Source: Deltaproteobacteria bacterium Ga0077550 (lineage in GTDB: Bacteria; Myxococcota_A; Polyangia; Nannocystales; Nannocystaceae). From it: DNA of 64,000 nucleotides. The notes under the pieces were generated by a model. The model saw only the letters and a list, made by a program, of their open reading frames with translations. It was not told where the DNA came from and ran no database searches. Within the stretch, counting starts at the first letter, position 1. The number at the start of each line of letters is the position of its first letter. The stretch is taken from positions 1-64,000 of the forward strand of contig LNFB01000329.1 of NCBI GenBank assembly GCA_001464385.1, in the 5' to 3' direction. The position numbers were made by a program, and so were the translations under genes. Positions 11,258-45,491 of the stretch are shown one piece after another.

Positions 11258-12547
11258 CTACCGGGCCCGGCTGTCGCCGCCGACCTCGGCGTACGCACGC
11301 GCGAACTCGGGGCCGAAGATGGCCTCCGTCAGCAGGCGGTCCGACTCGAGCAGCTCGCGGTGACGCTGGGCGTACTGCTTCCACAACGCGGCGCCCCGCG
11401 TCGGCCACGGGGCGGTGACCGAGCGCTCGATCTCCCCGGGGTCGAGCCGCGCCAGCAGGCCGCGTGCCCCCTCGAGCACACCGTTGATGAGCGCGACCTG
11501 GTGGATCATCAGATCGGCGTACACGCCGACGAGCTCCTGGGTGCGGTGCGAGCCGCCGGTCCAGTCGAGCAGGTACTTCAGCACGTTCTCGGCCGTGCCC
11601 GCGGCGTGCAGCGGCGTGAATTCCTTGATGGTGCGCACGCCCATCTCGTTGCCGAACTGCTCCTGGCCCTTCTGCAGCTCGACGAAGGCCTTGGCGCTCG
11701 CGCGCAGCACATCCTCGACGCACTGCAGGAACCGGGCGGTCTCGTCCGCCGTGCGCGGCGGATCCTCGCCGAAGCGCACCGCCCGGGCGAGCTTCGCCAC
11801 CGGCCCGCTGACGTCGGGCGCCGACGCGGGCGCCCGCAACGGCGCGGTCGTACCGACCCCGGCCTCGGCGAGGAGCGCCTGGAAGTCGGGCTCGTGGGCG
11901 AGCTCCGGGAACTCGCGCTGCATGACCGTCAGCGCGAACTGACGCGTGCCCGTGTCCATGCGCGACAGCGTCTGCTGCACGGCCCCGAGCAGGCCCCGCC
12001 ACGCGCCTCGGTAGCCCTCGACGTGGGGACGCAGCCCGGCGACCGCGTCGTGGATCTCGTGCATCGGCACGTGGGCCGTGCCCGCGGACGCCATGGGGCG
12101 CGGGGCCAACGACGGGGGCCCCGCGCGGCCCGGGTCACCGCTCACGACCTGCCACGCCGCCGTCGGTGCGACCGCGCCCGGGGTGCTCCACTGCGCGTCG
12201 GGGCGCAGATCCGCCGGCGCCGGCGAGCGCGTGTTCGTCGCGGGTCCCCGCGACATCCGCAGCTCGAGCTTGCCGATCGTCACCGACAGGAGCTCACCGA
12301 TCTCGACCGGCTCGCCCGCCTGCACGCGTCGACCGTCGAGCAGCGTGCCGTTGGTCGAGCCGAGATCGAAGAACCGCGCGGACTCGTCATCGAAGCGGAT
12401 GACCGCGTGCCACCCGGAGACGAACGCGAACGGCAACGAGAGATCGTTGAGGGGGTTCCGCCCGATCCGCACCGGGGAGTTCGCGAACTTGTACTCCGAT
12501 GTAGTGCCGGTCTCGGCGTCGAACACCGTGATCGAGAGGGCCGCCAT
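11258..12547 (-). CDS. FHA protein with T6SS TagH-like C-terminal domain
   Basis: 429 residues from the ATG at 12547. The N-terminal FHA domain (about 1-100) shows RIGRNPLNDLSL, SGWHAVIRFDD and DLGSTNGTLLDGR. A Pro/Ala linker follows. The C-terminal half (about 250-425) has the pattern of T6SS-associated FHA proteins (TagH/Fha): AFVELQKGQEQFGNEMGVRT, HQVALINGVLEGARGLLARL and FGPEFARAYAEVGG. Family members post-translationally activate T6SS by binding a phosphorylated partner. It is separated from the T6SS structural genes at 57776-64000 by the whole photosynthesis cluster. Confidence 0.75.
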   Translation of the reverse strand: MAALSITVFDAETGTTSEYKFANSPVRIGRNPLNDLSLPFAFVSGWHAVIRFDDESARFFDLGSTNGTLLDGRRVQAGEPVEIGELLSVTIGKLELRMSRGPATNTRSPAPADLRPDAQWSTPGAVAPTAAWQVVSGDPGRAGPPSLAPRPMASAGTAHVPMHEIHDAVAGLRPHVEGYRGAWRGLLGAVQQTLSRMDTGTRQFALTVMQREFPELAHEPDFQALLAEAGVGTTAPLRAPASAPDVSGPVAKLARAVRFGEDPPRTADETARFLQCVEDVLRASAKAFVELQKGQEQFGNEMGVRTIKEFTPLHAAGTAENVLKYLLDWTGGSHRTQELVGVYADLMIHQVALINGVLEGARGLLARLDPGEIERSVTAPWPTRGAALWKQYAQRHRELLESDRLLTEAIFGPEFARAYAEVGGDSRAR

Positions 12548-12698
12548 TGCGCTCGCCGCGAGGGTAGCACGCGCAGCACACTTCTCGGCACCTCGCGCCC
12601 CCTGCGCCCGAACGACTCGCCGAACGTCTCGACGGGGGCCTTCGACGGGGGTGGTTTCGTGCACGCCGTGGTAGAGTCGCCGTGGAACCACGCGCGCT

Positions 12699-14489
12699 TT
12701 GTCTGGGCCGAGGACCACCGATCTCTCGAGTTCGAGCCGGACTGCGGCTCGCCGCGGCCCGCTCGCCCTCGTGCGCACGGGCGCCGAGGACGGGGCTCCG
12801 CCGGTGGCCCCGGTGCCCGACGAGCTCAGCCTGCGCGTCCTGCTCCCGCTCATCCGCTACATCCGCAATCAGTTCGGCGAGCAGGCGGCCGAGCGGCTCG
12901 CCCGCGAGGCGGGCATCGAGATCTCCGCGTTCGGGCGCGCCAACAGCTGGACGTCGCACGAGCGGTTCGAGCGGCTGCTCGCCGGGGCCCGCGCCCTGAT
13001 GTCCACCGATCAGGAGTTCATGCGCGCGTGCACGCACGACATGATGCGGGTCTACGGGCCGATGATGCTCGTGCTCCGCTGCGTGTCGCTCGGCCGCGCG
13101 TATCGGATGATGGCGGGCACTGCCCACCTCGTGACGCGCATCAGCCGGTACGACGTACCGCAGCCGACGCGCACCTCGATCCGCCTGCGCTACACCTCGT
13201 CGCGCGACGAGAGCCGACTGATGTGCCTGTCGCGACAGGCACAGCTCCGCGCCGGCCCCACGTTGTACTGGGGCATGGCGCCCGCGGCCCTCGAGGAGCA
13301 CGCGTGCATCGCCCACGGCGACGGCTCGTGCGAGTACACCCTGCGCTGGTACGAGCCGGTGCGCTATCGCGGCCCGCTGTTCGGCGCGCTCGCAGGCCTC
13401 GCGCTGGCGTTCGTGCTGCCGCCGGTGGCGTGGGCCGCATCGTGGCTGGTGTCCGCGGTGTGCGGCGGCGCGGGCCTCCTGTTCGGCCTGCTCGCCGAGC
13501 AGCGCCGCCTGGTCGCGGACCACCTCCGGTTCGCCGACGAGACCAACCGCGAGCTCGAGCACCTCGCGACCGCGCACGCCCGCGCCGTCGACGAGGTCCT
13601 CGCGCTGCACCAACGCGAGCGGCAGTGGAGCGAGCAGCGCGAGGCGGCGATCGAGGAGCGCTCCGCTCGGCTCGACGCGGTGGTCGAGCGGCTGCAGGAG
13701 CGATCCGAGCCCCGACGGGACAAGCTCCGCAACCTCTCGCACGACATCAACAACCCCCTGGCCGTGTTGATGGGCATCGCGGGCCACCTGCGGCGCCGCG
13801 CCGACGACCCGGCGGAGATCGAGGAATCGGCGCAGACCCTCGAGACCGCGGTCGCCCAGCTCTCGGGCCTCGTCCGCGAGCTGGCGTCGATCGTCTCCGA
13901 AGAACCCGCGGTCCCGTTCGAGCCGACGGCGATCGACGTCGGCGAGCTCACCGATCGCCTGCGCCGCCAGCTCCGCGCCACCGTCGTCGCCCGCGACATC
14001 CGCGTGACGGTGTTCCAGACCCGCGAGGCGCCGCGGGAGATCCGGGCGGTCGTCCCGACGCTCGAGCGCGTCGTCGACAACATCCTCACCAACGCGGCGA
14101 AGTACACCGAGCGCGGCAGCATCGTCGTCGAGGTCGGCGGCACGCCGGGCTACCTGCTCGTGAAGGTCTCGGATACCGGCCGCGGCATCGGCCCCGAGCG
14201 ACTCGAGCAGGTGATGCAGACCGGCGGCCCGGATCCCAACCCGCCCAAGGGCGGCAGCCAGGGCGCCGGGCTCGGCATCGTCGCGCGCCTGCTCGACACC
14301 CTGGGCGGACGCCTCGAGATCATGAGCGAGCCGGATCAGGGCACCACGCTGTGGGTCTACATCCCCACCGAACCGCCCGAACGCACCGACCGACCGCGCG
14401 ACCCCGAGTCGCTCGCGGGGGTGATGGAACGCATCGTGCGCGTCCGCGCGAAGCCCACGTCGGGAGGCAGCCGTGGTGGTGCCGAGTGA
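12699..14489 (+). CDS. Membrane histidine kinase with V4R/HNOBA-like sensor
   Basis: Up to 596 residues from a TTG at 12699; GTG codons at 12771 and about 12801-12810 are equally possible starts, as the recognisable part begins near LLPLIRYIRNQ. The N-terminal domain ends EHACIAHGDGSCEYTLRW, typical of small-molecule sensor domains found before cyclases and kinases. Two adjacent membrane spans (about 228-270) and a coiled coil (about 280-345) follow. The HisKA box is LRNLSHDINNPLAVLMG, and the ATPase domain has DNILTNAAKYTE and DTGRGIG. No response regulator gene is adjacent. The stop overlaps the start of the ThDP enzyme gene. Confidence 0.8.
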   Translation: MSGPRTTDLSSSSRTAARRGPLALVRTGAEDGAPPVAPVPDELSLRVLLPLIRYIRNQFGEQAAERLAREAGIEISAFGRANSWTSHERFERLLAGARALMSTDQEFMRACTHDMMRVYGPMMLVLRCVSLGRAYRMMAGTAHLVTRISRYDVPQPTRTSIRLRYTSSRDESRLMCLSRQAQLRAGPTLYWGMAPAALEEHACIAHGDGSCEYTLRWYEPVRYRGPLFGALAGLALAFVLPPVAWAASWLVSAVCGGAGLLFGLLAEQRRLVADHLRFADETNRELEHLATAHARAVDEVLALHQRERQWSEQREAAIEERSARLDAVVERLQERSEPRRDKLRNLSHDINNPLAVLMGIAGHLRRRADDPAEIEESAQTLETAVAQLSGLVRELASIVSEEPAVPFEPTAIDVGELTDRLRRQLRATVVARDIRVTVFQTREAPREIRAVVPTLERVVDNILTNAAKYTERGSIVVEVGGTPGYLLVKVSDTGRGIGPERLEQVMQTGGPDPNPPKGGSQGAGLGIVARLLDTLGGRLEIMSEPDQGTTLWVYIPTEPPERTDRPRDPESLAGVMERIVRVRAKPTSGGSRGGAE

Positions 14490-30219: not shown

Positions 30220-33088
<2,869 letters not shown>

Positions 33089-34742: not shown

Positions 34743-35807
34743 CTACGGGCCGCCCGCGGCCGGACTGGCCGGGGCCGGGGCCGCCGGAGCGGTCCGCGGA
34801 GGCTGGGGCATCGCGCGGGCGAGGGGCGGGAAGTCGGGCAGCATGCTCTTGCCCATCAGGGGCTTGTACGCGCCCTGGTGGCAGGTCGCACAGTTGAGCT
34901 TGGGGCCGTCACCGTTCGGGCCGAGGCGATTGGGCGGGAACACGTCGGTCAAGGGCGCGAGCCACTCGTTGTTGAGGTGGCGCACCATTCGAATGCCGTG
35001 CCACGCCGTCGCCCGCGTCGCGGGGCTCTCGCTCCAATTCTCCCAGGCGCGCGAGTTGTGGCAATAGGTGCAGTTCACGCCCAGCGAGCGCGAGAAATGC
35101 ATCATCAGCGAGTACGTCCACTCGGTCTGCTTGATCGAGGAGTGGTTCTCCCCGGGCAGCGCGGTGTTGGTCTGCACGCGGATGCTGGTGTCCCCGAGCA
35201 GGAACTGCTCGAAGGCCGTGCGCGGCAGGGACGTGCCGTTGTCGCCATTGAACCGGTTCTGCTCGGCGTTGTAGCCCAGCGACGCCGCCAGCACGTCCTG
35301 CGGCGCCTCCTCGTGCCAGATGTACCGCGGCACGGGTTCGCCGCGGTGACAGGTCCAGCACGTGACGCCCGTCTCCTTGACGTGGCTCTTGAGGTCCTCG
35401 TTGATGTGCATCGTCATCTGCAGCATCCGCCGCGAGACGACCTTCGTGTAGAGCGCATCGGAGGCGAGGTCGCCGTCGACATGGCAATACGCGCATCCTT
35501 GCTGCGGCGAGACCCAGGCGGTGATCGAGTTCATCATCCCGACGAACTCGCCGGTGCTCAGGTGCCCGAGGACCTGCACGTTCTTGTACGCGTTCACCGA
35601 GAGGTCCCCCGACTTCGTCAGGGGGAGTGCGGGCGGGGGCACATTGCCGGCGGCCCGGTCCTCCATGCGCTCCACCGTATCGGTGACCTGCATCCCGACC
35701 CCGTCGAATCCGAGCTGGGTCGTGCGCGTGGGCTCGAACCAGAACACCACCATCAGGAGGATGAAGAACGCGACCATCCCCAGGGCTGTCTGCTTGAGAC
35801 CACTCAT
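34743..35807 (-). CDS. pufC: PufC, tetrahaem reaction-centre cytochrome c
   Basis: 354 residues. Four CXXCH haem sites sit at 105-109 (CAYCH), 150-154 (CWTCH), 246-250 (CTYCH) and 306-310 (CATCH), in the two-pair layout of the cytochrome that re-reduces the special pair. The N-terminal hydrophobic segment (about 8-24, [14 protein letters not shown]) has no lipobox Cys, so it is probably an uncleaved membrane anchor, unlike the lipidated PufC of some purple bacteria. A Pro/Ala tail ends the protein. The ATG overlaps the pufM stop. Confidence 0.95.
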
Positions 35808-37177
35808 TGCTGTCCCTCCTTGGCGTCGGCGGCCTTCGCCTCGGACTTGCTGTCGTCGAGCTTCGCGTCGTCGTCTGGTTTCGCGTCGGCAGCCGGTTTC
35901 GCGTCGGCAGCCGGTTTCGCATCGGCAGCCGGTTTCGCGTCGGCAGCCGGTTTCGCATCCTCCGCTTTCGCGTCTGCCTTACCCTCCGGCGTCTCCGCCG
36001 CATCCGCCTTCGCGTCCTCCGCCTTCGCGTCGGGCGCATTCGCGTCGGGGCCCTCGGGCGTCGCCTCGATGCCGCCCGCCACCGGGGGCGCGGCGATCTC
36101 GGTCGGCGCCGGGGTCTGCTCGACGGGGGCCACCGGCGCGGGCGCGGGCTCCACCGCCACCGGCGCGGCCGGGGTCGGCTCGGCGATCGCCGCCGGGTCC
36201 GGGGCCCGGACGGTCGGCACCCCCGAGATCAACGGATCCTCGGCGGTCTGGTACACGGCCGGGTACGACGGGGCGAAGTCGTGCTTCTGCGCCCATTGGT
36301 ACCAGTTGTCGACGGCCGTGCCGCTGAGCAGGATGCCGATGCCGCCCGTCAACGGGCACAGCACCGCGAACCACCACGCCCAGCGGTGGATGGACTCGAA
36401 CGTCGCGTTGAACCCCATCGTCCACCGCCAGAACAGCGCGCTGCGCTCGGCCGCGGTGCCGCGATCGACGACCTGACTGACCTCGCGCTCACCGCCGAGG
36501 TGACTGACCGCGAGAACCGTCGCGCCGTGCATCGCGAACAGCAGGGTCGAGCCATACAGGAAGACGATCGAGAGGCAGTGGAACGGGTTGTAGAACAGAT
36601 TGCCGTAACGGATCGAGAACGCCGCGGTCCAGTCGAGGTGCGGGAAGATGCCGAACGGCACCGCCTCGCCCCAGCTGCCCATCAGGATCGGGCGGATGAA
36701 CCCGAGCACGAGGTACAGCCAGATCGCCGAGGCGAAACCCCACGCGACGTGCGTCCCCATCCCGAGCGCCTTGGCGCGCCGAAAGGTGCGCCACCACCAG
36801 AGCAGGATCGACGCGCTCAGGAAGAACCCCGCCATCAGCCACCATCCGCCCTGGTTCAGGGCGGGGATGGACAGCCCGCCCGAGGGCGGTGGGGGCTCGA
36901 GCGCGAGCCAGGGCAACTGGCGGACGAACTCGGTCGGACTCCAGTCGACCGAGGCCAACATGTTGAGTCCGATGATCTCGAACGCGATGACGAAGCAGAT
37001 CGCCGAGGCCAAGCCGAGCGTGCCGAGGTAGATCGGGCCCAGCTGGGCGTTGCCGAACCAACCGACGAGTCGGGACAACCGCGCGCCGCGGGTACGCCCC
37101 TCGGCGTTCGGGATCGGCATCGACGGATTCGGCGGAGCCGCGACTTGAATCCGGGTGAAGATGTTCGTGTGCTGCAT
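35804..37177 (-). CDS. pufM: PufM, reaction-centre M subunit with long C-terminal tail
   Basis: 457 residues against about 310-330 usual. The core (1 to about 322) is normal with five membrane spans. Ligands can be read: His180 (PHLDW), His200 (YNPFH, special pair), His217, Glu232 and His264 (iron site), and Trp250 at the QA site. After [12 protein letters not shown] comes an extra tail of about 130 residues: first Pro/Ala/Val-rich, then Ala/Asp/Lys repeats of the ADAKPA type encoded by 18-bp DNA repeats. GGAG precedes the start. The tail would lie on the periplasmic side. It is the middle gene of pufLMC. Confidence 0.95.
35877..35948. repeat. Four 18-bp tandem repeats in the pufM tail
   Basis: Four consecutive copies of an 18-bp unit (GGTTTCGCGTCGGCAGCC on the plus strand, one copy with a G-to-A change), plus a partial fifth, encode the repeated ADAKPA residues. 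Copy number could vary by slippage. Confidence 0.85.
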
Positions 37178-37192
37178 GGGAATCTCTCCGGA

Positions 37193-38017
37193 TTAGGACC
37201 AGATCGGGAGGTTGAGCCACCAGCCCCACCACTCCGGCCACCCCTTGGTCCAGTAGGGGCCGCTGATGATGATGCAGACGGCGCTGAAGAACCCTGCGCT
37301 GAGGGCGAGCAACAGTCCGAGGCGGTGGATGCCCAGGGCGCCGATCGAATACCCGATGTGATCGCGGAAGAACGTGTCCTCGTACTCCGCGCCCTTCACG
37401 GTCTCGCCCTTCTGGGGGTTGGTCGCCGAGAGGATCAGACCTCCATGCAGCGCCAACGCCAGCGTCGTCGTGAAGAAGAACGACACGGCGATCATGTGGG
37501 CCGGGTTGTAGTGGAAGTGCAGGTATTGGTACCCGACGTTCGACACCCAATCGAGGTGACTGAAGATGCCATACGGGAACGCGTGGCCCCACGCCCCGAG
37601 CATCACCGGGCGTATGACCACCAGCGTGAAGTAGGCGAAGACGGCGACCCCGTAGGCGAACGCGATGTGATAGCCCATGCCCAGCTTCCGGGCGATCTCG
37701 GCCTGGCGCAGGGCCCAGGAGAAGAACGCGCCCAGGGCACAGACCGTCACCAGCTGCCAGATACCCCCCTCGCGCAACGGCGCGAAGCCGAGGCCATATT
37801 CGATGGGCGGCGGGGCGATGTTGATCAACCACGGGTTCCACGTCGGGCCGAGCGCCGCCCCCCAGAGGAGCAGCGCGGTGCCGACCACGGCGAAGAAGAT
37901 GGTCGTCACCCCGAAGAAGCCCACATAGAAGGGGCCGAACCAGAAGTCGAAGAGATCACCCCCGACGAGGGTGCCTCCACGGACGCGATATCGTCGCTCG
38001 AAGCTCAGCAGGGCCAT
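37193..38017 (-). CDS. pufL: PufL, reaction-centre L subunit
   Basis: 274 residues, normal length. Ligands line up one residue beyond Rhodobacter numbering: His154 (accessory bacteriochlorophyll region), His169 and His174 (special-pair region, FHYNPAHM), and His191 and His231 (non-haem iron). The QB proton path residues Glu213, Asp214 and Ser224 ([12 protein letters not shown]) are kept, so a quinone-reducing type II centre is expected to work. GGAG lies upstream of the ATG. Unusually, the gene follows bchO rather than pufA. Confidence 0.97.
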
Positions 38018-38036: not shown

Positions 38037-38957
38037 TCATTGGGCTTCGCGTCGTTGGTGCGGGCCCCGATCCAGGTGATCGAGGATCAGGGCCGAGATG
38101 TGATCGGGTCGCTCCTCGTGGAGGAGGTGACCCGCGCCGTCGACGACGGCGAGCGTGGCGTTACGGAGTCGGCGCGCGGCGTCCTGCACCTGGGGCATCG
38201 GCACCGCGAGGTCGTTGCGCCCGGCGAGCAGGAGGAACGGGACATCGAGCGCGGGCAGCTCGTCGTAGAGCGCGTCGATGTCCCAGCGCGCCATCATCGT
38301 GAGGACGCCCGTGACGTGCTCGGGTCGCTCGACGAGACGGCGGTACGATTCGACGCCGACCGCGTCGAGGACCGAGCCTGTGCCGCGCAGGATCCGATCG
38401 ATGCGATCCGAGGTCGCGAAGCACGAGGCGAGGAAGGCTGCCGATGACGATCGGCCGAGCAGCGCCGCTGCGGGGCGCAGCACCGCCGCCGCCAGGCCGC
38501 GGAAGGGCACCAACGCGGGGGCGAGGCCGACCACGAGCGACGGCGCGACGACCCCGTCGAGGGCGAGGCGCGTGGCGACTGCGGCACCGGCCGAGTGCCC
38601 CACCACGAGCCGCGGACGGAGCTCGAGGACCTCGAGGAGCTCGCGGAGGGCCTCCGCGACGTTCGGCAGCGTTGGATCGAACGCAGAGCCGAAGCTCGAG
38701 CCCGCGTGCCCCGGCAGGTCGGGCGCGATCACGGTGAACGACGCGGCGAGCCGCTGCATCAGCGGCCGACAGGAGTGGCTCGAGGCGCCCGCGCCGTGCA
38801 GCAGCAGCGCCACCGGGCCGCTACCCATCTCGAGCAGGTGCCATCGATGCTCCCGGATCGCGACCACGCGACAGCGCGGGGTGTCGCCGGTCGATGCCGA
38901 CGCCCGCGGGCCGGGGCGCGCATCGGGGCGCGTCGCCTGGGCGGCGGCTACCGACAT
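38037..38957 (-). CDS. bchO: BchO, alpha/beta hydrolase of the bchIDO unit
   Basis: 306 residues from the ATG at 38957, overlapping the bchD 3' end by 10 bases. It has the alpha/beta hydrolase fold: oxyanion region [16 protein letters not shown], nucleophile elbow [11 protein letters not shown], acid in [10 protein letters not shown] and His in [12 protein letters not shown]. BchO always accompanies the Mg-chelatase genes bchI and bchD in purple bacteria; its exact role is unsettled. It is followed by pufL after 19 bases. Confidence 0.92.
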
Positions 38958-40837
38958 GGCGCGGCCTCCTGGGCGAGGGATCGGATCTCGCGCGAGACCC
39001 CGGCGGTGTCGAGGTACGGCAGCGCGAGATAGCGGGCGTTCATCTCGCTCGCGAGCGCGCGGACGCGGGGCGTCGCGCGCGGCGAGGTGTCGAGCACCAG
39101 CGCGGGCACGCCGGTCTGGCGCAGCCGTCGGGAGCACGCCATCGCGTCCTCGGTCGCGGCGTCGCCGGTGCGACCGTCGAGGGCCACGTTGCCGCGCCCG
39201 TCGGTCATCATCACGACCAGCGGCGTGCGACCACGCTTGCGGGAGTCGGCCGCCAACGCGGTCGCGGCGTCGATGCCCGCGGCCAGGGGCGTGGTGCCGC
39301 CGCCTGCGAGATCCGCGAGGCGACGTCGCACGCGGGCGAGCGAGCGCGTCGGCGGCAACACGACGTCGGCATGCGTGCCGCGGAAGGCGATGAGCGCGAC
39401 GTGATCGCGTCGCACGTAGCAGTCGGTCAGGAGGTGCTCGACCGCGCCCTTGGCCTCGGCGAGGCGCTGCAGCGCGGCGGACCCCGAGGCGTCGACGGCG
39501 AAGATGACGCAGGTCTCGGTGCGCTGTCGGAATTGCTTGACGCGGAAGTCCTCGCGGCGGACCTCGACGCGGGGCCGCGCGAGGGACTCTGCGTGCGTGG
39601 TGCGCCCCCGCAGGCGCTGCCAGGGCGCGGCGGCGCGCAGCGTGTCGAGCACGGCGATGCGCGCCCCCTGACGCAGGGGCGCCGCCCGACTGCCCGCCGG
39701 TCGACCGCCCTGGGTCGAGGCGCGCGACGCCCCGGCCTGGCCCGTGCTCGGCGTCGCGGCCTGTCGGGCCCCCGCGAGCTTCATCAGCTCGAGCAGGCCC
39801 TCGGGGACGCCGCTCTTCGCGGCCTCGAGCACGATGTCCTCGAGCGCAGCCGGGTTCGGCACGTCGTCGGTCCGCGCGTCGTCGTGCTCGGGCGGGGACG
39901 CCTCGGGCGGCGCGGCGGCCTGCTCGGGTTGGGCGTCGTCGGGCCGATCGTCGGGCCGATCGTCGGGCCGATCGTCGGGGTCGGACGGTGCGTCGGACGG
40001 TGCGTCGGACGGGGGCTCTGCCTCCGTGGGGGCCTCGAGGCGAGTCGCGCGGCGACCGAGGACCAGGCGCGCGGCGACATCGAGATCGGCGGTCTCGACC
40101 GACGCACGTCCGGCCAGCGCGGCATGGACCGTCGCGGCACGGGCCGCCAGCAGCACCGCGCGCAGCGACGGGATCCCGAGGGCGAGCGCGGCGCGACACA
40201 GCGCGTCGATCGCCGCGGGCGCGAGCTCGACGGTCGCGAGTCGAGCGCGGACCTCGTCGAGCGAGCCCACGTCTTCGATCGACTCCGGCACCGCGCGGGG
40301 ATCGAAGGCGTCGAGATCGAACCCGAACGCGAGGCGATCCAAGAGGCACGGTGCGACCTGCTCGTCCTCGATACCTTCGTCGAGCACGACCAACGAGAGC
40401 GCGCACGGGACGACGGCCGTCATGCCATCGCGTTCGAGGGCGAGCTGCCCGCGATCGAGGACCGCGCACAGGTGCGCGGCGACGCGGGACTCCATGCGCT
40501 CGGCCATGGGGAGGATCGCCAGGCCGCCGTGGGCACCGGCGAGGAGGCCCTGCTCCCACACGACCCTGCCGCGGTGAAGCGTCGCCGCCAGCGAGATGCC
40601 GCCCAGGAGCCGATCGTCGGTGACGTGCAGTGGGATCCGCGTCGACGGGGTCGCCGCCGGGAGCAGGCCTCGGATCCACGCGCAGACGCGATCGCGGGCG
40701 GGCCCGGAGCGCGCGCGCAGGTGGATGCCGCCGAGCCCGAAGGGATCGACCGCGAGCATCCGGGCCGCCACGACGACGTCCGCCCACGGTCGGAGCCGTG
40801 GGGATGCGGCCGCGTCGGTCGACGGCACGTCGCTCAT
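38948..40837 (-). CDS. bchD: BchD, Mg-chelatase subunit D
   Basis: 629 residues from the ATG at 40837, which overlaps the bchI stop. An N-terminal AAA+-like part lacks a good P-loop, as is usual for BchD. A central acidic/Pro linker has DDRP repeats (12-bp DNA repeats at 39937-39972). The C-terminal integrin-I/VWA domain holds the MIDAS motif DASGSAA and TDGRGN. It couples BchI ATPase to Mg insertion by BchH. Confidence 0.95.
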   Translation of the reverse strand: MSDVPSTDAAASPRLRPWADVVVAARMLAVDPFGLGGIHLRARSGPARDRVCAWIRGLLPAATPSTRIPLHVTDDRLLGGISLAATLHRGRVVWEQGLLAGAHGGLAILPMAERMESRVAAHLCAVLDRGQLALERDGMTAVVPCALSLVVLDEGIEDEQVAPCLLDRLAFGFDLDAFDPRAVPESIEDVGSLDEVRARLATVELAPAAIDALCRAALALGIPSLRAVLLAARAATVHAALAGRASVETADLDVAARLVLGRRATRLEAPTEAEPPSDAPSDAPSDPDDRPDDRPDDRPDDAQPEQAAAPPEASPPEHDDARTDDVPNPAALEDIVLEAAKSGVPEGLLELMKLAGARQAATPSTGQAGASRASTQGGRPAGSRAAPLRQGARIAVLDTLRAAAPWQRLRGRTTHAESLARPRVEVRREDFRVKQFRQRTETCVIFAVDASGSAALQRLAEAKGAVEHLLTDCYVRRDHVALIAFRGTHADVVLPPTRSLARVRRRLADLAGGGTTPLAAGIDAATALAADSRKRGRTPLVVMMTDGRGNVALDGRTGDAATEDAMACSRRLRQTGVPALVLDTSPRATPRVRALASEMNARYLALPYLDTAGVSREIRSLAQEAAPCR

Positions 40838-41856
40838 GCGGAGAAGACCTCCTCGAGGGCCCGATCGACGCGCACCGTCGAACCGACCTCGTCCAGCGGA
40901 TCTCGGCGCAAGCGGTGGCGCAGGGCGAGCGCCGCCACCTGCTTGAGGTGGAGCTCGCCGGTCTCCGTGGCGCCGTCGAGGCTCGCGGCCGCCCGCGCCG
41001 CGCGGATGAGCGTGAGTTCGCCGCGCAGGCCGTCGGTCCCCAGGGCTGCGCACAGCGACGCGGCCCGCTCGATGACGCGATCGGACACCGCGATCTCGCG
41101 CAGGCGGACGCGCGCGTCGGCGAGGCGACGGCTGGTCGCGGCCTCGCTCGCGGCGTACTCCGCCAAGAAGCGCTGCGGATCGTGGTCGAACGCCATCCTG
41201 CGCTTCACGACCTCGACGCGGGACGCGATGTCCGTCGGCGTCGAGATCTCGAGCGCGAGCCCGAACCGATCGAGGAGCTGCGGGCGCAGCTCGCCCTCCT
41301 CCGGGTTCCCGCTGCCGATCAGCACGAAGCGCGCCGGGTGGCGCACGCTCACGCCCTCGCGCTCGACGACGTTCTCGCCCGAGGCCGCGACGTCGAGCAG
41401 CAGGTCGACGAGGTGGTCCGGCAGGAGGTTGACCTCGTCGATGTAGAGGAAGCCGCGGTTCGCCCGCGCGAGCAGGCCGGGTGAGAACACCCGCTCGCCG
41501 CGGGAGAGCGCGGCCTCGAGGTCGAGCGCGCCGACGACCCGATCCTCGGTGGCGCCGAGGGGGAGATCGACGACCGGGACGGGGATCTGCTGCGTGCGGA
41601 ACTCGGCGCCCTGGCGGCGCGGGCACTCCGGCACGCAGCGGCTGGCGTCGTCGCTCGGATCGCAGTTGTACGCGCAGCCGCACACCGCGTTCATCGGCGG
41701 CAGGAGGGACGCGAGGGCGCGGACGGCCGTGGACTTGCCGGTGCCACGGTCGCCGAGCACCAGCACCCCACCCAGGGTCGGATCGATCGCGACGAGCTGC
41801 AGGGCGAGCCTCAGCTCGTCCTGCGCGACGATGGCGGTGAAGGGAAATGCGGCCAT
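40834..41856 (-). CDS. bchI: BchI, Mg-chelatase ATPase subunit
   Basis: 340 residues. It is an AAA+ ATPase with Walker A GDRGTGKST (35-43) and Walker B FLYIDEVNLL (136-145). The Cys-containing insert VCGCAYNCDPSDDASRCVP is the one that gives thioredoxin sensitivity in relatives. It forms the ring complex with BchD. It lies 19 bases downstream of an unknown membrane-protein gene and overlaps bchD. Confidence 0.97.
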   Translation of the reverse strand: MAAFPFTAIVAQDELRLALQLVAIDPTLGGVLVLGDRGTGKSTAVRALASLLPPMNAVCGCAYNCDPSDDASRCVPECPRRQGAEFRTQQIPVPVVDLPLGATEDRVVGALDLEAALSRGERVFSPGLLARANRGFLYIDEVNLLPDHLVDLLLDVAASGENVVEREGVSVRHPARFVLIGSGNPEEGELRPQLLDRFGLALEISTPTDIASRVEVVKRRMAFDHDPQRFLAEYAASEAATSRRLADARVRLREIAVSDRVIERAASLCAALGTDGLRGELTLIRAARAAASLDGATETGELHLKQVAALALRHRLRRDPLDEVGSTVRVDRALEEVFSA

Positions 41857-41875: not shown

Positions 41876-43045
41876 TCAGGCGACCGCGAGCTCCGAGTGC
41901 ATGGGGTCGGAGTCGGCCGCGGTGCCGACGCGACGGCGGCGGGCCGCTCGCCACAGCGCCCACGTGCCGAGCGCGAGCCCGCCGAAGAAGATCGCGAACG
42001 TCGTGGGCTCGAGCAGGAGCCACGGCTGGCGCATCACACCCCACTTGCCGAGGATCTCGACCGGGGTCCACACGACGATCATCGCCCCGACCGCGTAGCG
42101 GATCGCGGGGCCCCAGCCCGACTGCTGGTGGAGCCTCCAGATGCAGTAGAGCGATCCGGCCATCGCCGAGAAAAGGATCGACTTGGTCGCGATCGAGTAG
42201 ACCCCCGCGAGCTGCTCGTCGTAGGTCCACAGCAGCAGCAGATAGAAGAACCACACCGTGGTGACGTACTGGAAGGCGCTGCGGGGGCCGTAGTTGTCGA
42301 TCCGACCGTGGACGATCGGTCCGCGCATGGTCGGCACGCGCTCGCGCCACCACAGGAACACCGGACAGCGCGACGACTCGAGGAACAGCAGGTAGGCGAG
42401 GATGAGGACCAGTCCGCCCCAGCTGTGCTTGAGCAGCACGTACTCGCCGTAGGTCGCGACGAGCTGCCCGTCGAGGACCGCGACGGTCTTGCCGATGCCC
42501 ATCGAACGGGACGCCAGGGTGAGCCCGTACTCGATCGCGCCGGTCCAGATCAGGTTGCCGCCGAAGATCCCGAGGATCGACTGCGCCGCGTCGTTCTGGA
42601 TCCGCGACGTCGCCCAGATGAGGACCAGGCCGAGCGCGGTCAGGCCGAGGGCCGCCCAGACCAGGAAGCGCGTCACCGGCAGGGTGCGCACCTCGAGGGT
42701 GCCGGCCTGCGCCTCGATCAGACCCGCCTCGAACACCCGTCGATCCGCGGGGTCGCGGGTGCGGGCGACCGCCGCCTCGAGTTCCTCGACGAGCGAGAGA
42801 TCGCTGAAGAGCCGCGCGGGCACGCCGGCGGCGAGATCGGGATCGGCCACGGCCTGCTCGCCAGCATTGATCGCGACCATGAACAGGTGCGCCGACCCGA
42901 GCATCAGCAGCACGAAGAGGCTGGTGAGCAGGGTCCGCAACCAACGGTTGTGCCGCCACCCGTCCGCACGCACGCGCGCACCACGGCCGCTCGGGGCTGC
43001 CGGAGCGGTCGTGTGGGCCATCGCGGTGCTGCGCTGCGTGAACAT
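41876..43045 (-). CDS. Unknown multi-span membrane protein in a pigment operon
   Basis: 389 residues (ATG at 43021 would shorten it by eight). The first membrane span (about 37-57) is followed by a charged loop of about 70 residues outside the membrane. Then come about five to six further spans. The most distinctive block is RIDNYGPRSAFQYVTTVWFF then YLLLLWTYDEQLAGVYS. There are no haem, iron-sulphur or di-iron motifs. I do not recognise the family. It sits between the Bch2-like transporter (3 bases) and bchI (19 bases), so it is almost certainly co-expressed with Mg-chelatase and reaction-centre genes under the PpsR-type promoter at 44444-44487. Confidence 0.75.
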   Translation of the reverse strand: MFTQRSTAMAHTTAPAAPSGRGARVRADGWRHNRWLRTLLTSLFVLLMLGSAHLFMVAINAGEQAVADPDLAAGVPARLFSDLSLVEELEAAVARTRDPADRRVFEAGLIEAQAGTLEVRTLPVTRFLVWAALGLTALGLVLIWATSRIQNDAAQSILGIFGGNLIWTGAIEYGLTLASRSMGIGKTVAVLDGQLVATYGEYVLLKHSWGGLVLILAYLLFLESSRCPVFLWWRERVPTMRGPIVHGRIDNYGPRSAFQYVTTVWFFYLLLLWTYDEQLAGVYSIATKSILFSAMAGSLYCIWRLHQQSGWGPAIRYAVGAMIVVWTPVEILGKWGVMRQPWLLLEPTTFAIFFGGLALGTWALWRAARRRRVGTAADSDPMHSELAVA

Positions 43046-43048
43046 GCG

Positions 43049-44422
43049 TCAGACCGGATCCACCAGGTACGTGGGCCGTGGTGTGGAGGGAAGCGCGGCG
43101 GCCCGAACGCCGTGCTCGGGGAGCGTGGTGCGTAGCGCGAGCCGTGCGGCGACGACGAAGCCGAGCGCCTCGAGGCCGAACACGAAGGCGTAGGACAGGC
43201 CCGAGGACTGCCCCGCGATCCCTTGGGCGGCGTCGACGAGCACGGTCCCGAGGAAGCCGCCGGCGCCGAAGGCGATCGCCTGCGCCGCGCCCCACAGGCC
43301 CATGCGCATGCCCTCGCGTCCGCTGCGACCGTGGGTGGACAGCGTCATCATCGCGGCGATCGCCGCGATCGAGAAGGCGCCGTTGGCCACACCGAGGAGG
43401 AACACGTTCTGGCTGAGGGGCCACCACGCAGCGCCGGTGAGGCCGGCGAACACGAGCCCCGACATCGTGAGCGCGGACGCCAGGCAGCCGCCGACGACCC
43501 ACCCCTTCAAGGATGCGATGCCACGGCCCTTGAACGCGGAGGTGACGACCGCGACCAGGAGCATGCCGACGAACACACCGCCGTGCTGCGAGCCCGCGAG
43601 CTTCGTCGAGGCGCCGGGTGACCAGCCGAAGACGAGCCCGGCGAACGGCTCGAGGATCAGATCCTGCGCGCTGTAGGCGAGCATCGACACCAACACGAAG
43701 GCGGTGAAGCGACGGGCGTCGGGCTCGGACCACACCTGGGCGAGCGCGCGGCGGAACGCCCCCGCCTCGGACCGTGGGGCCTGCGGCGCGGCGACGCGGT
43801 GGACGATGCGGGCCTCGACGCCGCGCATGGCGACGAACGCGACGACCACCGCGATCGCACAGACGCCTGCGGTGACGCTGATCAGGCGACCGTACGAGAA
43901 GGGATCGAGCAGGCCGCCCGCGACCCCGGCCGTGATCGCGAACCCGGCGATCATCATCATCCACACGACGGTCGTCGCGGCCGCGCGACGCGGGGCGGCG
44001 ACGCCCTTGGCGAGCAGCACGAGCAACGATGTGCCGCAGGCGCTCACGCCCCCGCCGATCGCCGCGTACGAGAGCACCGCGAGGGCGAGGCCCAGCGTCG
44101 GCTGGGCCGGCATGAGGGCGATCGCGCTGGCGGCCCCGAGGCCACCGAGCGCCAGCACCACCATCCCGAAGAGGATCCACGGCGTGCGCCGTCCGCCGAC
44201 GTCGGTGCCGTGCCCCATGCGCGGTCGCAGCAGCTGCATCGCGTGGTGCAGCGTCACCAGCGCGCCGGGCACCGTCGCGGCCAGGGCGAGCTCGACCACC
44301 ATGAGGCGGTTGAACGTCGAGGTCGTGAGCACGACGACCGCCCCGAGCGCGGCCTGGACGGCGCCGAGTCGGACGATGTCGAGCCATCCGAAGGTGTTGT
44401 CGCCGGGTGTCGCGCCGCGCAC
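43049..44422 (-). CDS. Bch2-like PucC-family membrane transporter
   Basis: 457 residues from a GTG preceded by GGAGAGG. It has the MFS fold with twelve spans of the BCH1/PucC family: STFNRLMVVELALAATVPGA, MGHGTDVGGRRTPWILFG and AYSAQDLILEPFAGLVFGWS. Purple bacteria carry such a gene between bchG and bchP (Bch2/ORF428). Here it heads the operon running to pufC. It may move or hand over bacteriochlorophyll during assembly of light-harvesting complexes. It is distinct from lhaA in this cluster. Confidence 0.85.
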   Translation of the reverse strand: MRGATPGDNTFGWLDIVRLGAVQAALGAVVVLTTSTFNRLMVVELALAATVPGALVTLHHAMQLLRPRMGHGTDVGGRRTPWILFGMVVLALGGLGAASAIALMPAQPTLGLALAVLSYAAIGGGVSACGTSLLVLLAKGVAAPRRAAATTVVWMMMIAGFAITAGVAGGLLDPFSYGRLISVTAGVCAIAVVVAFVAMRGVEARIVHRVAAPQAPRSEAGAFRRALAQVWSEPDARRFTAFVLVSMLAYSAQDLILEPFAGLVFGWSPGASTKLAGSQHGGVFVGMLLVAVVTSAFKGRGIASLKGWVVGGCLASALTMSGLVFAGLTGAAWWPLSQNVFLLGVANGAFSIAAIAAMMTLSTHGRSGREGMRMGLWGAAQAIAFGAGGFLGTVLVDAAQGIAGQSSGLSYAFVFGLEALGFVVAARLALRTTLPEHGVRAAALPSTPRPTYLVDPV

Positions 44423-44461: not shown

Positions 44462-44469
44462 CCACAGAG

Positions 44470-44487
44470 TGTCAAGCACATTTGACA
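44470..44487. promoter_or_regulatory. PpsR/CrtJ box between the Bch2-like gene and the hydrolase gene
   Basis: TGTCAAGCACATTTGACA is a perfect TGT-N12-ACA palindrome. On the minus strand its TTGACA can serve as -35, with a weak -10 near 44447-44453, for the operon that includes bchID and pufLMC. On the plus strand it faces the hydrolase gene. Confidence 0.85.
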
Positions 44488-44507
44488 TACCCTCCGAGGC
44501 CCCGACC

Positions 44508-45491
44508 GTGACGTGGCCGACCGTCGCGCCGACGGGGCGAACCCGGGGTAGCCTCGCCGGCTTGGTCACTTCGGCGTCCGCGACACCCCCTCCCCTGCCG
44601 CTGCCGGTGCCTGGCGTGGCGACTTCGCTGCACGATCGACGCGCAGGGGATCTGGAGCTCTACGCGGCGGACCGCGCAGGCTCGGCCACCGGCGCGCCGG
44701 TCTTGCTCGTGCACAGCATCAACGCCGCAGCTTCCGCGTTCGAGGTGCGACCGCTGTTCGAGCGCCTCGCCCCGAGCCGTCCGACCTACGCGATCGATCT
44801 CCCGGGGTTCGGCCGATCCGACCGCAGCGATCGCCCCTACTCGCCGCGGCTCATGACCGATGCGATCCATGCCGCGGTCGAGACGATCCGCGGGCGGCAC
44901 GGGGGCGCGCCGATCGACGGTATGGCCCTGTCGCTGTCCTGCGAGTGCCTCGCGCGCGCCGCCATCGAGGCCCCCGACGCCTTCCGCACCCTCGCCCTGG
45001 TGAGCCCGACGGGCCTGGGCAAGCGCCGCTTCGACGGGCCGCCCGGCGGCAACCGGGGGATGGCGTGGGTCCGCGCGATCCTGCGGCAGCGCTGGATCGG
45101 CGCGCCCCTCTTCCGGCTGCTGACACGGCCGAAGGTGATCCGGTACTTCCTCGCGCGCACCTACGGCCGCCCCGAGGTCGACCCCGAGCTCTGGGCCTAC
45201 GCCATTCTCACTGCGGGGCAGCCGGGGGCCGAGCACGCGCCGCTGTGGTTCCTCTCCGGTCACCTCTTCAGCACCGACGCGACCCAGCTCTACGCGGCCC
45301 TGCCCGGTCGCGTGTGGCTGAGCCATGGCGTGCGCGGCGACTTCGTCGACTACGGGGGCGCCGACGCGATCCTCGAGCGCGCGCCGGGGTGGTCGCGGAC
45401 CATCTTCCAGACCGGCGCGATGCCCCACTACGAGCTGCCCGACGCGTTCGCCAGCGCCTACCTCGACGTCCTCGCCGCGGCTCCCGCCTAA
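44508..45491 (+). CDS. Alpha/beta hydrolase, first gene of block D
   Basis: About 327 residues from the GTG at 44508; the frame is open from 44469, but that would place the start inside the PpsR box. Later GTG/TTG starts are possible, since the fold begins near ELYAADRAG. Visible are the oxyanion strand LLVHSINAAASAFEVRPLF and YAIDLPGFGRSDRSDRPYS. The elbow is GMALSLSCECLA, where Ser-Leu-Ser-Cys replaces the usual G-x-S-x-G. A late His is in GAMPHYELP. It is not BchO, which is at 38037. Its PpsR-controlled place before crtE suggests a pigment-related esterase, but the substrate is unknown. Confidence 0.7.
   Translation: MTWPTVAPTGRTRGSLAGLVTSASATPPPLPLPVPGVATSLHDRRAGDLELYAADRAGSATGAPVLLVHSINAAASAFEVRPLFERLAPSRPTYAIDLPGFGRSDRSDRPYSPRLMTDAIHAAVETIRGRHGGAPIDGMALSLSCECLARAAIEAPDAFRTLALVSPTGLGKRRFDGPPGGNRGMAWVRAILRQRWIGAPLFRLLTRPKVIRYFLARTYGRPEVDPELWAYAILTAGQPGAEHAPLWFLSGHLFSTDATQLYAALPGRVWLSHGVRGDFVDYGGADAILERAPGWSRTIFQTGAMPHYELPDAFASAYLDVLAAAPA

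Follow-up and report, generated by a model that had tools for sequence, protein, structure and literature searches.

The locus and its gene content

The window, i.e. the whole stretch of 64,000 nucleotides from Deltaproteobacteria bacterium Ga0077550 that was analysed, carries a photosynthesis cluster (PGC) in which the minus-strand genes follow each other in the order lhaA, X, bchI, bchD, bchO, pufL, pufM and pufC (Table 1). X is the name used here for the membrane protein encoded by the 389-codon minus-strand frame of the ORF list, as read from its translation. It is separated from lhaA by 3 bp and from bchI by 19 bp. An earlier sequence-only reading of this DNA had placed a frame of exactly this extent between a Bch2-like transporter and bchI, tightly spaced to both, and all of this is borne out, the upstream gene being of the PUCC/LhaA family. 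The frame is not a chance one, because full-length homologues with 60-67% identity are encoded in eight other Myxococcota genomes. Both neighbours are likewise retained: lhaA orthologues in five genomes of the window's class are 63-70% identical, and the bchI genes adjoining X in relatives 66-73%.

Table 1. Position of X, its neighbours and the upstream palindrome in the window
Feature	Position	Strand	Description
X	41876..43045	-	1170-bp ORF, 389 aa, ~8-span membrane protein; no Pfam/NCBIfam/PDB match
X soluble loop after span 1	42668..42871	-	residues ~59-126, ~65 residues; predicted periplasmic
lhaA-like PUCC-family MFS gene	43049..44422	-	Pfam PF03209 E 9.6e-81; directly upstream of X
bchI, Mg-chelatase AAA subunit	40834..41856	-	directly downstream of X
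bchD	38948..40963 (approximate; listed ORF begins upstream in frame)	-	AAA_lid_2 + VWA
bchO-like alpha/beta hydrolase	38037..38849 (approximate start)	-	C-terminal part of listed 916-aa frame
pufL, reaction-centre L subunit	37193..38017	-	PF00124 E 1.6e-95
pufM, reaction-centre M subunit	35804..37177	-	PF00124 E 6.8e-103
pufC, reaction-centre cytochrome	34743..35807	-	PF02276 E 1e-123
PpsR/CrtJ-like palindrome TGTCAAGCACATTTGACA	44470..44487		upstream of lhaA-X-bchI-bchD; between lhaA and divergent hydrolase gene

The PpsR-type promoter proposed earlier upstream of these genes is present as a motif: the strict pattern TGTCA-N8-TGACA, to which TGTCAAGCACATTTGACA at 44470 belongs, occurs four times in the window, and the loose form, TGT-N12-ACA, is seen 11 times against an expectation of about three. 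A loose PpsR-like site, TGTAAAGACCGGTTGACA, also lies 91 bp before X in the related genome G554 (locus L005). The other strict palindromes of the window, at 32062, 45497 and 47557, are near further photosynthesis genes.

Several other features of the surroundings are recorded here in their own right. The pufM product (457 aa) ends in a C-terminal tail of about 130 residues, rich in Ala, Lys, Asp and Pro and with repeated 'PAADAK' units (35804-36200, minus strand); the Photo_RC match stops at residue 301, placing the tail beyond the reaction-centre domain. A second alpha/beta hydrolase gene (44469-45491, plus strand) is divergent from lhaA, matches the BchO model weakly and below its cut-off (E 4.5e-4), and is kept beside lhaA in phototrophic relatives at 53-59% identity. 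Near the photosynthesis cluster there is also a gene (11258-12853, minus strand) for an FHA-domain protein with a type VI secretion FHA C-terminal domain.

Features of the X protein

Hydrophobicity, the positive-inside charge pattern and AF2 secondary structure together favour about eight helices for X rather than the six to seven assigned from sequence alone, and suggest a predicted topology of eight spans with both the N- and C-termini inside. The large soluble loop reported earlier after span 1 is confirmed, its helices being modelled at pLDDT 72-92, and a large basic cytoplasmic loop at residues 225-255 is rich in invariant positions. Residues invariant in all 11 aligned sequences comprise H53 and M56 in span 1, followed by WTG-x2-E172, R180, E201-Y202, Y268 and Y275-D276, and then by W311-G-x3-R316, W326-T-P-x-E330 and W342. 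Many of them would fall on the periplasmic half in this topology, an arrangement that would suit an aromatic and acidic ligand pocket.

The two AF2 models of the whole protein, built from six close sequences, are poor (pLDDT 53 and 56), and a Foldseek comparison of them with the PDB returned nothing below E 0.3; the bacteriorhodopsin-like helix bundles that came up (TM ~0.3) were given no weight.

Sequence relationships and phyletic distribution

Searches with X against Pfam, NCBIfam and the PDB sequences, both as a single sequence and as a profile, returned no match, in agreement with the earlier observation that it resembles no known photosynthesis gene. In particular, it does not belong to the PucC/LhaA/Bch2 group of BCD transporters (MFS), PF03209 matching the neighbouring protein and not X. 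Like X, PuhE and the LhaA-type proteins are integral to the membrane and encoded in the photosynthesis cluster, but X matches neither, and PuhE (DUF3623) and PUCC-family proteins are encoded separately in the window. A GTDB contig scan recovered five relatives with 60-66% identity, all from Myxococcota; no relatives were detected in a scan of viral_contigs, nor in 11 alphaproteobacterial plasmid records with pufL. Two lesser matches were set aside: that in G452 (E 0.009) is a false positive, antisense to the gene of an OmpA-like repeat protein, and that in G367 (E 5e-7) is a short fragment with stops and was left out as a full member. The latter (L009:1501-1650) adjoins a gene for an iron/B12-type binding protein of the Peripla_BP_2 family and is apparently a decayed relative.

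Within the window's class (318 genomes) X is present in all six genomes with LhaA (G000, G213, G492, G543, G554 and G589) and in one of the 312 without it, namely G528 (Fisher 5e-12, a statistic that ignores shared ancestry). All six were directly seen to carry reaction-centre or bch genes, and in each of them X lies immediately upstream of bchI. Its earlier placement in a photosynthesis operon holds for the window, and the position next to a pigment gene is conserved. The gene lhaA adjoins X as well in four of the six (G000, G213, G492, G589); in G554 (L005) transhydrogenase-like genes separate lhaA from an X-bchI-bchD unit, and in G543 lhaA has a different location, X still adjoining bchI. 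Across the phylum, two of a set of 379 Myxococcota genomes have full-length X, and these two also carry reaction-centre genes; three phototrophs in the set, from other classes, lack it.

X occurs outside PGCs in three genomes (loci L003, L004 and L006). In the first, the phototroph G380, whose assembly lacks bchI, it is flanked by a hybrid histidine kinase gene on one side and a nifH-D-K-E-N-B-nifV-like cluster on the other (L003:6580-19557). The other two, L004 and L006 (G528, 90% complete), come from apparently non-phototrophic genomes without a match to Photo_RC, CobN/BchH or BchY; by genome, the X carriers that lack these markers are G381 and G383/G528. These absences are called on draft genomes. 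The two apparently non-phototrophic Myxococcota, the copy beside nif and the Prevotella homologue from haem-uptake-type loci described below refute the notion of X as a gene that co-occurs only with PGCs. Thus, in the window's class X shows a strong association with phototrophy without being exclusive to it. The homologues in non-phototrophs are rare within the searched set and lack an established function, rather than being widespread with an unrelated, established one, the outcome that the sequence-only reading had named as speaking against it. When a tree is rooted on Prevotella, an outgroup with a long branch and differing composition, all seven copies from phototrophs group in a single clade (95/98) and the two from non-phototrophs fall outside it, a topology that fits a putative single recruitment in phototrophs.

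The G380 genome, a MAG, thus combines photosynthesis and nitrogen-fixation genes, the nif identities being read from translations. It also encodes (C451; L036:2148-6440) a CobN-like protein of 1430 aa, with what looks like a signal segment and with a C-terminal membrane helix, in a layout resembling HmuS and adjoining genes for a TonB receptor, a CobO-like protein and an ABC permease. This protein was set aside: it sits among B12-type transport genes and is unlinked to X.

TspO in the equivalent gene slot

In G187 and G212, phototrophs of another class that lack X, the gene between lhaA and bchI encodes TspO (PF03073, E ~1e-37), and the G187 protein matches solved TspO structures, including 8e7x and 4uc1, among the PDB sequences. 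A PF03073 search of the draft assemblies found no TspO in G000 (the window genome), G379 or G380, and G382 has one marginal match outside the PGC. In the Roseobacter litoralis PGC, TspO lies near bchI without adjoining it. In the paper describing the Myxococcota photosynthesis clusters (PMC10576062), genes without an assignment are shown in grey, and the text does not name tspO.

TspO/CrtK (TspO_MBR, PF03073) resembles X in occupying the same slot, in being a multi-span protein of photosynthesis clusters and in its richness in Trp. It differs in having five spans in about 160 aa, as against about eight in 389 aa with an extra soluble loop in X; and X homologues, unlike TspO, occur in haem-uptake-type loci. 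A divergent TspO is ruled out by an hhalign comparison of X with two myxococcal TspO proteins (probability 0.1), and X gives no Pfam match to the TspO_MBR profile. Because the slot is shared and profile similarity is absent, X is a non-homologous membrane protein that fills the position of TspO between lhaA and bchI, as seen from a comparison of one X clade with two genomes that have TspO there. The exchange was probably a single evolutionary event. In Rhodobacter, porphyrin is a ligand of TspO, which also influences porphyrin intermediates and the expression of photosynthesis genes (reviewed in PMC4926414).

Homologues in iron and haem contexts

A protein search of plasmid records, through which alone the Bacteroidota side of the family is seen, recovered a distant relative of 296 aa from Prevotella (29% identity, pairwise E 2e-28), present as two copies, 77% identical, in one record that has no CobN. 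Both copies (L010:5809-6699 and L013:8232-9104) are full-length and share the eight-span plan and the invariant residues of X; they differ from it in being without the soluble loop and in following genes for a TonB receptor and HmuY, whereas X precedes bchI. The paralogous loci (L010:2047-6699 and L013:4196-10566) each comprise DUF4903, the TonB receptor, the HmuY-type haem-binding lipoprotein (PF14064, E 2e-34) and the X homologue, and are distinct from hmuYRSTUV; at the second a gene for a PepSY_TM protein comes next.

This haem-uptake context raised the possibility that X is HmuT, which is also a multi-span inner-membrane protein from haem loci (the Bacteroidota hmuYRSTUV operons). Direct comparison with HmuT from two hmu operons, those of Prevotella nigrescens and Bacteroides finegoldii, showed no similarity and ruled this out, and the Prevotella loci, unlike HmuT operons, are without hmuS, hmuT, hmuU and hmuV.

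In the non-phototroph G528 (L006) a Fur-like box matching at 15 of 19 positions, GGTAATGATTTGCATTATC, lies 13 bp before the likely start codon of X. It outscores every other site in the 21-kb locus, and not one of 3000 random sequences matched in composition reached its score; a strong box occurs in this one genome only, L004 having a weaker site (12/19) at the same place. The G528 box and the context of the Prevotella loci suggest a role for the wider family in iron or haem handling.

Proposed role and alternative explanations

On this evidence the reading that we favour, tentatively and with a little under even confidence, is that X belongs to an unnamed inner-membrane family of iron and haem contexts that was recruited to the bchID operon, where it binds porphyrin in the slot of TspO. 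Standing in that slot beside bacteriochlorophyll genes, X probably handles or senses porphyrin. The non-photosynthetic members lie in iron and haem contexts, and X would have been recruited once into the bchID operon of phototrophic Polyangia-type Myxococcota, where the slot is elsewhere filled by TspO. The invariant residues, the slot and the gene contexts together lead to the proposal that X would bind protoporphyrin IX or its Mg or haem derivatives, and move, buffer or sense porphyrin at the haem/bacteriochlorophyll branch point. The ligand site may be the conserved His/Glu/Trp/Tyr-rich pocket, predicted to face the periplasm. By analogy with TspO, X might thereby limit photosensitising intermediates, feed back on pigment gene expression, or both; for such TspO-like binding and feedback the argument is the slot exchange only. 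The earlier suggestion of a pigment-linked candidate factor thus stands in part: pigment or porphyrin handling is the best fit, given TspO in the slot of relatives, while confinement to photosynthesis falls away.

A broader version, in which X founds a porphyrin-handling inner-membrane family spanning Bacteroidota haem uptake, iron-regulated loci of non-phototrophic Myxococcota and bacteriochlorophyll synthesis, and displaced TspO non-homologously at the Mg-chelatase branch point, is conceivable and rather unlikely.

One alternative is that X is a partner in iron or haem uptake, working for example with a ferric reductase of the PepSY type or with a haem/iron permease of the inner membrane, and that in phototrophs it supplies iron or haem, the bchI linkage reflecting the balance of haem and bacteriochlorophyll instead of porphyrin sensing. 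The TonB receptor, HmuY and PepSY_TM genes of the Prevotella loci, the Fur-like box in G528 and the decayed G367 fragment beside the Peripla_BP_2 protein would all be in keeping with it; we nevertheless regard it as unlikely in view of the strict linkage of X to bchI and the PpsR-like sites seen in phototrophs, the occupation of the slot by TspO in relatives, and the lack of a second invariant His for bis-His haem in the 11 sequences. That X anchors or assembles the BchI-BchD(-BchH) Mg-chelatase at the membrane, bringing the enzyme to where its product is used, would account for its position immediately before bchI-bchD at short spacing in all six class phototrophs and for the many invariant residues of the basic cytoplasmic loop. 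This is quite unlikely: some genomes encode X homologues but neither BchH/CobN nor PufLM, the Prevotella record has no CobN, and many invariant residues lie within the membrane or towards the periplasm.

The earlier wording also embraced a factor for reaction-centre or light-harvesting assembly or for membrane remodelling, to which the co-transcribed layout of X with lhaA and pufLMC in the window would correspond; the genomes G554 and G543, which keep X at bchI with lhaA elsewhere, and the non-phototroph homologues make this improbable. Equally improbable is that X has some unrelated housekeeping role and came into the operon by chance as a passenger, since the three copies outside PGCs are set against adjacency to bchI in six of six phototrophs across three families and absence from 311 of the 312 class genomes without LhaA.

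Implications

As a porphyrin-handling protein in the slot of TspO, X would extend the photosynthesis clusters of Myxococcota by a gene that has gone unrecognised so far. The job of TspO in phototrophs is still debated, and if X takes its place beside the Mg-chelatase, it would offer an independent handle on that job: traits common to X and TspO, e.g. the ligand, an effect on the porphyrin pool or feedback, would be likely to represent the real function. If the proposal is true, a membrane component of haem-uptake-type loci would also gain a name.
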